A stretch of DNA of 32,051 nt from a virus: IMG/VR virus record IMGVR_UViG_3300042398_000119, positions 1 through 32,051 of that record; one strand, given 5' to 3'. Under the pieces are notes generated by a model. That model had not been told where the DNA came from, made no database searches, and saw only the letters and a list, made by a program, of their open reading frames with translations. A program made the position numbers and the translations under genes. Below are positions 28,761-32,051 of this stretch, in pieces (position 1 is the stretch's first letter; every line of letters starts with the position of its first letter).

Positions 28761-29114
28761 ATGAATTGCGAGCGTTGCGGAATGGAAGTTAGCGAAGCGG
28801 CAGTAGAAAGAAGAAAGGCACGGGGAACCTATGACGGTAAATGCTCAGACTGCCGTAATGGAATGGCAACTGAAATAAAATACAACGGAACGGTCTGCCG
28901 TCCGTGGCGTGGAGAAGTAGACGAACACTTCAACCCGATAGATAGAAACCTAAAGCTTTATCTTCCGGGCTTCCGCACTTGTCTTCACAAAGACTGCGTA
29001 AACAAAGAACACATAATCCAGCCGGACTATTCGCTGGAGCTAGAGCGCAACGACATTAGCTACCGAACAGGAACAAGAAGTGAAATGAAAGACTTTCTAA
29101 AGGAATCCGCATAG
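28761..29114 (+). CDS. Zinc-finger protein with HNH-like tail (paralogue of 22673-22942)
   Basis: A 117-residue protein. It starts with the CERCG pair, then CSDCR, YNGTVCRPWRGEV and LPGFRTCLHKDCVNKEHI, in the same order as the protein at 22673-22942, and adds a 27-residue C-terminal extension. The end block resembles the second half of an HNH_3 nuclease. It could be a nuclease with a modified active site or a DNA-binding factor. A good ribosome site is absent; ATG 28761 follows the previous stop by two bases. Confidence 0.7.
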   Translation: MNCERCGMEVSEAAVERRKARGTYDGKCSDCRNGMATEIKYNGTVCRPWRGEVDEHFNPIDRNLKLYLPGFRTCLHKDCVNKEHIIQPDYSLELERNDISYRTGTRSEMKDFLKESA

Positions 29115-29284
29115 TGCCTACCTACGAATACAAATGCCCTGACTGTCCTATGACCATTACCATTACCCGAAGCGTAGAAGCTGAAGAGCATAAGCCGGGT
29201 TGCGCTAACTGCGCGCAAGTAATGGTTAGAGTCTTCGACGCTCCACCTATCCAGTTCAAGGGAAAGGATTGGGGAAAAGATTAG
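29114..29284 (+). CDS. FmdB-like zinc ribbon protein
   Basis: A 56-residue protein from a GTG that shares one base with the upstream stop. The N-terminus MPTYEYKCPDC is diagnostic of FmdB/CxxC_CxxC_SSSS-type putative regulatory proteins. The second pair CANC follows, and the end FKGKDWGKD resembles the family's FxGxG(W/F)xxxD tail. A single zinc ribbon is expected. Phages carry such proteins near terminase and HNH genes, with unknown function. The stop lies inside the start region of the next gene. Confidence 0.75.
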   Translation: MPTYEYKCPDCPMTITITRSVEAEEHKPGCANCAQVMVRVFDAPPIQFKGKDWGKD

Positions 29285-29618
29285 AAGGTTCCCTAAGCCC
29301 TGCCGTATCTGCGGAGTCCTATCCCCCGAACCGCTATGCGAACCACATCAAGCGCAAGCCAAAGCAATTCACGAAGCTCGACGTTCTCAGCGCAAGGCAA
29401 CGACGGGACAGTATGGCGGGGACTACGCACGACGGGCTAGAGCAGTCCGAGAGTCTGCGATTGCTTGCCACCTATGCGGAGAAGGAAAGAAAGAAAATGA
29501 CCCATTCGAAGCTGACCACGTAATTCCTGCCAGCTCTGGAGATACTGGACAACTTCTTCCTGCTCATAGAAGCTGTAATAGACGCCGTAGCAATAAGCCC
29601 CTGCCCGGTTCCCGCTAG
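29280..29618 (+). CDS. HNH endonuclease without a usual start codon (hidden gene)
   Basis: An open frame from 29223 to the stop at 29616-29618 contains no ATG, GTG or TTG, yet encodes a clear HNH nuclease: RFPKPCRICG, then a helical region, CHLCGEGKKENDPFEADHVI, and LLPAHRSCNRRRSNKPLPG. The zinc pairs (CRIC/CHLC) and the DH...H..CN core are all intact. Possible starts are ATT at 29280 (after GGGGAAAAG) or ATT at 29268 (after AAGGGAAAGG), or a +1 shift from the upstream FmdB-like gene. The terminase genes lie downstream. HNH proteins beside terminase genes help cos cleavage and packaging in HK97-like phages. Confidence 0.75.
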   Translation: MRRFPKPCRICGVLSPEPLCEPHQAQAKAIHEARRSQRKATTGQYGGDYARRARAVRESAIACHLCGEGKKENDPFEADHVIPASSGDTGQLLPAHRSCNRRRSNKPLPGSR

Positions 29619-29690: not shown

Positions 29691-29785
29691 CAAGCCAATA
29701 CCCCGACCGCAGTTCTGCGTAAACACCCGCGAAATTAGTTGGTTTTCTGGTGCTACGCTAGAAGCCTAGAAACGAAAGGGAAGCA

Positions 29786-29887
29786 TTGAGAAACGGGAAG
29801 AGCTACCAAAAATCACCGAAGCGAACTAGCAAGGGGAATTCAGCTCGGCGAAGAAGTCGAGCTAAACAAATCAAAGGCAGAAAATGA
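29786..29887 (+). CDS. Very basic 33-residue peptide (TTG start)
   Basis: An ORF from TTG 29786 to a stop that overlaps the next ATG (ATGA at 29884-29887). The 15 bases just before it, AACGAAAGGGAAGCA, are identical to the leader of the gene at 24050, which is strong support for translation. The peptide is Arg/Lys/Ser-rich (RNGKSYQKSPKRTSKGNSAR, then RRSRAK), probably disordered and nucleic-acid-binding. It may act as a leader peptide coupling translation to the methyltransferase gene. Confidence 0.5.
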   Translation: MRNGKSYQKSPKRTSKGNSARRRSRAKQIKGRK

Positions 29888-31062
29888 AAATCGAAACCCT
29901 ACAAATCAAAGACCTAACGCCCGACCCGGCTAACGCTAGGCAACACGACGAAAAGAACCTAAAGGCTATTCAAGGTTCCCTAAAGGAGTTCGGTCAACGC
30001 AAGCCCATCGTCATAACCGAAGCGGGCATAATCGTCGCCGGAAACGGAACCGTCGAAGCTGCGAAGCGTTTGGGCTGGTTGAAGATTGACGCGGTTCGAG
30101 TCCCGGGCGATTGGACACCGGAGCAGACAAAGGCGTTCGCTCTAGCCGACAACCGCACCGCGGAACTAGCTTCTTGGAGTCCGGAAGTCCTAGCTAGTCA
30201 ACTTGTCGAATTAGAAGCGGCTGGATTCCAAATTGAAGAGTTTGGCTTTGAAGTCCAAGAAGCTCCAATCGACCCGAGTTCAATAAAAGAAGATGAAGTC
30301 CCTGAAGAAGCAATAAGCCGAGTTGCTCTTGGAGATATCTGGCAGCTAGGAAAGCACAAACTTATCTGCGGAGATAGTTCCGATGCTGAATTAGTCAAGG
30401 CTCTTATGGACGGGCAAACCGCAGACTTAGTTTTCACAGACCCTCCTTATCGAATGGAGGCAGAAGGCGGAAGCGACCAATGGGTAGGACGTTCAGCCGC
30501 GAAGGTTGGAGAGTCGATTAAAGATATTGTTGACTTTGACCCAGTCGCATTCTTGGAAAGCTTGCCTTCTTACTTTACAAAAACAATGAACGCGTATATT
30601 TTCTGTAATAAAGACCTAGTCCCGGACTACTTAAATTGGGCTTTGAAAAGCGGCTATGCCTTCAATATCTTATTTTGGAAAAAGCCGAATGCCCTTCCGC
30701 TTGGCAGTCAGCACCGACCAGATACCGAGTACATTATCTTCATTAGAAAAAACGCTATTTGGAACAATGGACTAGAAGGCGTTAATTATTCGAAAGCCTT
30801 AGAGTTCGGCAGAGAGAACTCCACCACTCACCCGACTATGAAGCCTGTTGGACTTATCTCAAATGAGCTTCTTATTAGCTCCCACAAGGGTGGGATTGTT
30901 GTTGACCCATTCTTAGGCTCAGGCTCTACTTTGGTAGCGGCAGAGCAGACTGGTCGCGTTTGCTATGGCTTCGAGTTGGAACCTAAGTATTGCGACATCA
31001 TTCTCAAGCGGTGGGAAACACTCACCGGGCAGACAGCCCAGCTACTTTCCAAGCCCCTTTAG
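29884..31062 (+). CDS. ParB-like / DNA methyltransferase fusion
   Basis: A 392-residue protein. Residues 1-95 form a ParB/Srx-type nuclease-fold domain (LTPDPANARQHDEKNLKAI, then VAGNGTVEAAKRLGW and ADNRTAE). The methyltransferase follows with TDPPY (185-189, motif IV) placed before DPFLGSGSTL (341-350, motif I), the beta-class order. HPTMKPVGL lies just before motif I. DPPY suggests adenine-N6 methylation, with cytosine-N4 as the other option. This fusion is common next to terminase genes in phages. It can protect virion DNA during or before packaging. The target site is unknown. Confidence 0.92.
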   Translation: MKIETLQIKDLTPDPANARQHDEKNLKAIQGSLKEFGQRKPIVITEAGIIVAGNGTVEAAKRLGWLKIDAVRVPGDWTPEQTKAFALADNRTAELASWSPEVLASQLVELEAAGFQIEEFGFEVQEAPIDPSSIKEDEVPEEAISRVALGDIWQLGKHKLICGDSSDAELVKALMDGQTADLVFTDPPYRMEAEGGSDQWVGRSAAKVGESIKDIVDFDPVAFLESLPSYFTKTMNAYIFCNKDLVPDYLNWALKSGYAFNILFWKKPNALPLGSQHRPDTEYIIFIRKNAIWNNGLEGVNYSKALEFGRENSTTHPTMKPVGLISNELLISSHKGGIVVDPFLGSGSTLVAAEQTGRVCYGFELEPKYCDIILKRWETLTGQTAQLLSKPL

Positions 31063-31111: not shown

Positions 31112-31561
31112 ATGCCAGCCGGAAGACCTACTAAACCAGTGGAGCAGAAGCGACTAATTGGCAATCCCGGCAAGCGCGCTCTGCCCGAGCAATCGGCAAT
31201 AATGCTTATTCCGCAAGCTTCGCAAACTCCAGAACCCGCACGTCCACTTCTCAAATACGGGCAGGAGCTTTGGGACAGGGTTTGGGAGTCCGGCATCAAT
31301 TGGATAAGTCCAAACACCGACCTAGAAATTCTTCTTATGACTTGCGAGCTAATCGACGAACGCTGGAACCTTCGAGTGCGTGTTATGACAGATAACAACC
31401 CGAAAGACCGCCGGGGACTTCGAGAGATTGACAGACAAATCGTTTCGAATTTAGGGCTTCTAGGATTTACTCCGTCCGACCGCTCTCGATTAGGCGTGGC
31501 AGAAGTAAAGAAAATGAGCAAGCTCGAAGAGCTAATGGCGAAGAAGGCTAACCGTGAATAG
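31112..31561 (+). CDS. terS: Terminase small subunit, complete copy
   Basis: A 149-residue protein, the full-length counterpart of the fragment at 1-279. It begins PAGRPTKPVEQKRLIGNPGK, the typical N-terminus of P27-family small terminase subunits (GRP-K-P...L-x-GNPGKR). A helical core (TDLEILLMTCELIDERWNLR) and a basic C-terminal helix (AEVKKMSKLEELMAKKANRE) follow. The ATG follows GGAGAAAGCCTA. It recognises phage DNA and loads the large subunit, whose GTG start overlaps its end by 8 nt. Confidence 0.93.
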   Translation: MPAGRPTKPVEQKRLIGNPGKRALPEQSAIMLIPQASQTPEPARPLLKYGQELWDRVWESGINWISPNTDLEILLMTCELIDERWNLRVRVMTDNNPKDRRGLREIDRQIVSNLGLLGFTPSDRSRLGVAEVKKMSKLEELMAKKANRE

Positions 31562-32051
31562 TTGGCCCCCGCTTTGGCTAACTCCAGTTCCGCAGAAAGC
31601 TATCGAACAAGGCGACGGAGAAATAGTAATCGAGTTCTCGGAAACGTTCGGGACAATCGGTAAGGACGGAATCGCTGGAAAGGTTGGACAGGCTCTAGAG
31701 CTTCGACCGTGGCAACAAGAACTTATTCGGAATGTTTACGCCCGGGATAAAGACGGTGGGCTTCTTGCTCGAACCGCTCTAATCGGAATGCCAAGAAAAA
31801 ACGGAAAGTCTTCTCTCTCTTCCGTTAGCTTCGCTCTCTACTCCTTGTTGGCTGAAGGCGTAGAAGGTGGAGAAGTTTATTCAATCGCAGCGGAAAAAGA
31901 ACAAGCAAGAATCGTATTCAGCGAAACGAAGAGAATTGTTGAATCTACGGAGCTATCTGAAATGGTCAAGGTCTATCGCGACGCACTCTTCGTTCCAGCA
32001 ACTAACTCCGTCTATCGAGTCCTATCCGCTGAAGCATATTCAAAAGAAGGA
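31283..32051. repeat. Right copy of the diverged terminal repeat
   Basis: Aligns without gaps to bases 1-769, with roughly 95% identity (about 36 substitutions counted by eye). Changes are almost all synonymous. Visible amino-acid changes are few: two in TerS, Ser to Asn at residue 2 of TerL and one Arg/Lys swap. If the two ends represent one locus, the genome unit is 31282 bp. Confidence 0.93.
31554..32051 (+). CDS. terL: Terminase large subunit, 5' part (cut by window end)
   Basis: The first 166 codons of the large subunit, from GTG 31554 to the window end, including the complete Walker A (GMPRKNGKS) but not the Walker B. It is the counterpart of 272-769. The protein differs from that copy at residue 2 (Asn for Ser) and in an Arg/Lys exchange near residue 43, while most of the DNA differences are silent. 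The truncation is due only to the end of the sequence. Confidence 0.93.
   Translation, partial: MNSWPPLWLTPVPQKAIEQGDGEIVIEFSETFGTIGKDGIAGKVGQALELRPWQQELIRNVYARDKDGGLLARTALIGMPRKNGKSSLSSVSFALYSLLAEGVEGGEVYSIAAEKEQARIVFSETKRIVESTELSEMVKVYRDALFVPATNSVYRVLSAEAYSKEG

Follow-up and report, generated by a model that had tools for sequence, protein, structure and literature searches.

How is an intact nuclease gene translated when the reading frame that holds it contains no ATG, GTG or TTG? The question is raised by a 131-codon frame on the + strand, bounded by TAA at 29220-29222 and TAG at 29616-29618, in the 32,051 nucleotide stretch of viral DNA (IMG/VR record IMGVR_UViG_3300042398_000119) that we refer to as the window; the genes and sites of the window described below lie on this same strand. 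A sequence-only reading had recognized in the frame an intact HNH endonuclease lacking a standard start codon, and this is borne out by a match to PF01844 (E=1.2e-4, 22.6 bits against a cut-off of 21.4), by matches to eight HNH families of the PHROGs collection (best 2e-10, including PHROG 338 and PHROG 144) and by the motifs CRICG, CHLCG, EADHVIP and LLPAHRSCNRRR. The same reading had predicted that gene finders would miss the gene, and a simple gene caller does indeed return a spurious 84 residue ORF at 29269-29523 in its place; with this caller no other comparable start-less gap was found in the window. As we describe below, comparison with related contigs argues that positions 29280-29618 are a working, separate gene for a 112 residue HNH nuclease, whose translation is very probably initiated at the ATT codon at 29280-29282.

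The predicted protein comprises an N-terminal CxxC...CxxH knuckle followed by the HNH core. In an alignment of 14 homologues residues C8, C11, C20, H23, C63, C66, D79, H80, H96, C99 and N100 are invariant, and the catalytic and zinc residues (D79, H80, H96 and N100 along with C63, C66 and C99) are thus all kept. Judged by its sequence, the protein started at the ATT is a complete HNH domain, with profile positions 5 to 105 covered in a comparison with 5h0m, the HNH endonuclease of phage GVE2 and the nearest solved structure matched over almost the whole length, although the sequence match is weak (E=0.019). An AlphaFold model is of moderate quality (pLDDT 79.5, pTM 0.48), and a Foldseek search of the PDB with this moderate-quality model gave no match at E<=0.001, with PacI and Hpy99I appearing at noise level only.

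Directly upstream of the nuclease is an FmdB-type zinc-ribbon gene at 29114-29284 (PHROG 1076; TIGR02605, 39.7 bits against a cut-off of 31.3) that starts with GTG and ends with TAG at 29282-29284. The local sequence reads GGGGAAAAG-ATT-AG, with T29282 common to the FmdB stop and the proposed HNH start, and the HNH gene beginning at ATT 29280 therefore overlaps the FmdB gene by 5 bases. It had been claimed that the nuclease frame begins exactly where the FmdB gene ends; this needs correcting, since the frame is already open within the FmdB gene and the two genes overlap. Two ATT codons had been proposed as starts, at 29268, preceded by AAGGGAAAGG, and at 29280, and both are present in the window. 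Only the second of these is conserved.

The point at which conserved coding begins can be located from substitution rates in the 14 full-length members of what we call the ATT lineage, the group of contigs that share this junction. In the HNH frame dN/dS is 0.125 after the ATT and 0.106 over codons 2-30, as compared to values of 1.6 and 2.2 for the control frames over codons 2-30. For the 18 codons that precede the ATT, dN/dS is 1.36 in the HNH frame versus 0.17 in the FmdB frame, and conservation of the FmdB frame upstream of the junction is seen more generally (0.17-0.23). The low values thus move from the FmdB frame to the HNH frame at the junction, where one conserved frame gives way to the other. 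By this measure strong purifying selection acts on the HNH frame downstream of the ATT but not upstream of it, and conserved coding opens at ATT 29280 or no more than one or two codons away.

A scan of IMG/VR with the HNH protein yielded 32 relatives. The junction in which GAT-TAG ends FmdB and ATT-AG opens the nuclease occurs in 16 contigs, the window and 15 of these IMG/VR relatives, which come from 15 metagenome IDs, and in none of the 15 others is there a canonical start at the HNH boundary. Codons that flank the junction differ among these contigs, which therefore do not represent one assembly repeated. That a base might be missing or extra at this site had been raised at the outset; no such change is found in the ATT lineage, where 15 independent contigs carry the same junction. 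ATG, GTG and TTG are absent from the whole frame in the window and in several other members (L003, L005, L008, L009, L011, L013 and L017), and the remaining members have scattered, non-conserved occurrences of these codons within it. A degenerate search of the junction that allowed GAC and any stop codon recovered the same contigs plus one, L157 (IMGVR_UViG_3300028557_001834), which also reads GATTAG. This contig is divergent and ends 20 codons into the HNH gene; in its close relatives a TTG start overlaps the stop TGA (GATTGA), its FmdB is nearest to those of ATG- and TTG-start relatives, and its junction may be of independent origin or an error. A scan of GTDB genomes returned only remote HNH relatives, mostly from Actinobacteria.

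In the wider family the same position is occupied by standard start codons. Among 115 distinct junctions 99 have ATG, GTG or TTG at the HNH codon or at most one codon away, and ATT only is found in the other 16, corresponding to 15 of the lineage and L157. Two relatives, L019 and L030, have an FmdB gene ending in TGGGGAAAAG exactly as in the window, followed by ATG GGT as opposed to ATT AGA; ATG is found in the same FmdB context in a dozen further relatives, and another group has TTG overlapping TGA. In L004, whose HNH protein is 97% identical to that of the window, an ATG sits exactly at the position of the ATT, and in L015 there is a TTG; in both of these contigs FmdB and HNH are separated by an additional small gene. 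The inserted gene encodes about 80-90 amino acids with a C2H2-like Cys/His pattern. In a tree of HNH proteins the ATG-start L019 is sister to the ATT lineage (99/95) and L004 and L015 are nested inside it, a topology that suggests a single origin of the ATT state in the lineage, with two later restorations of a canonical start accompanied by gene insertion. An HNH homologue is also encoded by Pontimonas phage phiPsal1 (MG835450.1, about 30533-30844; 2528-2839 in L002), unannotated and with an ATG start that overlaps the preceding stop; the phiPsal1 annotation has a spurious ORF at 30570-30683 instead.

Conservation of the ATT is in part dictated by the FmdB reading, in which the same letters specify Asp (GAT) followed by TAG, and conservation alone therefore cannot separate initiation at the ATT from a +1 shift. 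The sequence-only reading had offered the latter as its alternative, a programmed +1 ribosomal frameshift at GAT TAG A that would fuse the zinc ribbon to the nuclease. The geometry is right, in that a ribosome passing over a single base at the FmdB stop would continue in the HNH frame, and GAT TAG is invariant across the ATT lineage; as in +1 frameshifting of the prfB type, a stop codon lies between the two frames. Unlike in prfB-type frameshifting, there is neither a conserved slippery codon nor a fused homologue here. The preceding Lys codon, where an AAA-to-AAG slip could be envisioned, varies between AAA, AAG and AGA, and on reasoning only one would expect the Asp-tRNA from GAU to re-pair poorly with AUU. 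In-frame FmdB-HNH fusions number zero in the 115 distinct junctions; in three of these FmdB does lie in the HNH frame, yet a stop intervenes and HNH has a separate ATG. In L019, L030 and other relatives whose FmdB context matches, ATG stands at this very point, and in the close relatives L004 and L015 a gene stands between the two, with HNH starting from its own ATG or TTG. The fusion alternative thus lacks support, and we consider a frameshift very unlikely.

Very unlikely as well is a start elsewhere, either upstream inside FmdB, at ATT 29268, or at a non-canonical codon further in. HNH-frame ATG or TTG codons do occur 45 or 72 bases upstream in L012, L014, L018 and L032, and ATT 29268 is present in the window behind AAGGGAAAGG, but such upstream starts are not conserved, roughly half of the ATT-lineage sequences carry GTT instead of ATT at position 29268, and the upstream part of the HNH frame is free of protein constraint (the dN/dS of 1.36 given above). 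A start further in would cost the protein its conserved F-x-K-P-C-x-x-C knuckle, the first position of which is residue 4.

That the sequence or its assembly is in error, or that the gene has decayed and lost its start, is extremely improbable. The single divergent contig L157, with GATTAG where its relatives have GATTGA and a TTG, is the kind of one-contig case that could be an error, but the lineage itself consists of 16 independent contigs with diverged surrounding bases and one common junction, no HNH motif residue has been lost, and dN/dS is as low as 0.125. For the ATT lineage an error or a pseudogene is ruled out by the shared junction together with this ratio. Transcriptional slippage on GGGGAAAA, a G4A4 run just upstream of the junction in the window that might give rise to mRNAs with fused frames, is scarcely credible, as the number of A residues differs over the lineage, being 4, 3 or 2 (GGGGAAAAG, GGGGAAAGG, GGGGAAGAG), so that the run is short and not conserved.

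Initiation at ATT 29280 as a separate gene is hence the explanation that we retain as very probable, because conserved coding begins at this codon or very close to it, relatives have canonical starts there and the junction is conserved in 16 contigs. The rare ATT start put forward from the sequence alone is in this way supported by comparative evidence, namely the junction, dN/dS and the start codons of relatives. Preceding the ATT is a purine-rich, Shine-Dalgarno-like stretch, AAGGGAAAGGATTGGGGAAAAG, at 29258-29279, inside the 3' end of FmdB and purine-rich because it is FmdB coding sequence. Its predicted duplex with the anti-Shine-Dalgarno sequence has an energy of -11.5 kcal/mol in the window and of -7.4 to -11.5 kcal/mol over the ATT lineage; corresponding predictions are -5.9 to -8.5 kcal/mol for ATG-start relatives with the same junction and -1.8 and -2.8 kcal/mol for the canonical-start L004 and L015. 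At the G-run lies the Gly codon of an FmdB Trp-Gly pair; all 15 of 15 sequences of the ATT lineage use GGA for it, whereas it is divided among GGA (7), GGC (4) and GGT (3) in ATG relatives. Of the six fourfold sites at conserved residues it is the sole one that is invariant, with the other five varying in the ATT lineage. Weak starts are offset by strong ribosome sites in other genes (PMC5622118, PMC13009471), and the pattern here, at one site in one lineage, is suggestive of a strong ribosome site that compensates for a weak ATT start.

In the mechanism that we consider most likely, initiator fMet-tRNA would read AUU 29280 as the start of HNH. Ribosomes that finish FmdB at the UAG at 29282-29284, or that bind to 29258-29279, would have their P site one base from the AUU, and initiation there would occur at a low rate coupled to translation of FmdB, probably in a process of termination and reinitiation. 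Initiation factor IF3 would be expected to limit initiation at AUU 29280, in keeping with its effect on AUU starts elsewhere. For the coupling, the low rate and the part assigned to IF3 we extrapolate from infC, sigR and work on re-initiation (PMC5472188, PMC2268962), with the presumed behavior of IF3 and of the ribosome borrowed from other bacteria. Tight control of the nuclease through a rare start, as had been suggested for this gene, is plausible.

The position of the gene bears on what such a nuclease might do. A putative cos overhang, the 10-base 3' overhang CCCGACCGCA at 29702-29711, lies 83 bases past the HNH stop, with HNH the last gene before it. In several related contigs one end stops at ...AC, immediately ahead of these ten bases, and the opposite end begins directly past them (contig ends around the ten bases are found in L004, L005, L008, L012, L013, L015, L020, L022 and L026); comparison of L020 and L213 with the uninterrupted L025 leaves a gap of exactly ten bases, and Illumina adapter-like bases are present at the tips of two contigs. 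That the ten bases are missing from both ends would fit a 3' overhang removed by end repair. The first gene after the cos encodes a ParB-N/N6-N4 DNA methyltransferase (29884-31062, Pfam and PHROG matches) and is followed by the terminase small subunit (31112-31561; PF25673, PHROG 83) and then by the large subunit, so that the proximity of HNH to the terminase noted initially stands, with terS and terL one methyltransferase gene beyond the cos. HNH proteins in packaging modules of the HK97 type occupy a position beside cos and terminase. From its gene position and family the present one is probably the cos/terminase-associated HNH of such a module. The ends of the contig, 1-769 and 31283-32051, overlap by 769 bases of terS/terL sequence at 95.3% identity; by this overlap the contig, which IMG/VR lists as linear, wraps a circular map, with the two ends probably deriving from slightly different strains.

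More speculatively, cos phages of one lineage, with Actinobacteria as their probable hosts, may have fixed AUUAG, an AUU start overlapping the stop before it, so as to keep a packaging nuclease at a low level, translation-coupled and sensitive to IF3, with the L157 junction perhaps a second origin. We regard this scenario as possible but doubtful. A second origin in L157, if real, would point to selection and not to drift.

Few bacterial genes that start with AUU have been documented. Because contexts are matched and the start codon alternates between ATG, GTG, TTG and ATT at a single position, the family provides a natural series with which non-canonical initiation and the coupling of stop and start become directly testable. 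There is also a practical side, in that viral gene calling limited to ATG, GTG and TTG misses a conserved nuclease, with a spurious ORF replacing HNH in the window. The literature searched, with incomplete coverage that makes this no proof of a first case, contained no phage gene whose AUU start is conserved.

It is of interest to compare the junction with systems that are already known. AUU starts have been described and are rare, with infC, pcnB and cvfC1 as examples (PMC5472188, PMC5622118, PMC13009471), and switches from AUG to AUU are very rare, with 1 in 61,358 reconstructed AUG starts (PMC5622118), a rarity that counts against an AUU start for HNH. The infC gene starts with AUU in E. 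coli, and IF3 represses non-canonical starts in Streptomyces (PMC5472188). Like HNH, infC (AUU in E. coli, ATC in Streptomyces) has a conserved non-canonical AUN start that gene finders miss or misplace (PMC5472188); infC is, however, a host gene within an autoregulatory loop of IF3, whereas for HNH no such loop is known, and the proposed start overlaps the stop of the gene before it. Streptomyces sigR, which starts with GTC and is repressed by IF3 (PMC5472188), shares with HNH a non-canonical start and, probably, an actinobacterial setting and differs in its codon, in having been shown experimentally and in controlling a sigma factor. In S. aureus the conserved AUU start of cvfC1 is accompanied by an extended Shine-Dalgarno sequence (PMC13009471), and cvfC1 together with ccpN (AUA) resembles what is proposed for HNH in combining a lineage-conserved weak start with a strong extended ribosome site (PMC13009471). 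The start of cvfC1 was mapped by ribosome profiling, whereas that of HNH is placed by comparison only, and the HNH ribosome site would lie inside another gene, with the start overlapping a stop. At the level of the protein the closest parallels are 5h0m and HNH proteins of the HK97 type, from the first of which the window protein, a predicted nuclease, is set apart by the weakness of the sequence match, and with which it shares an N-terminal Cys/His knuckle, an HNH core of nearly full length and a place beside cos and terminase.
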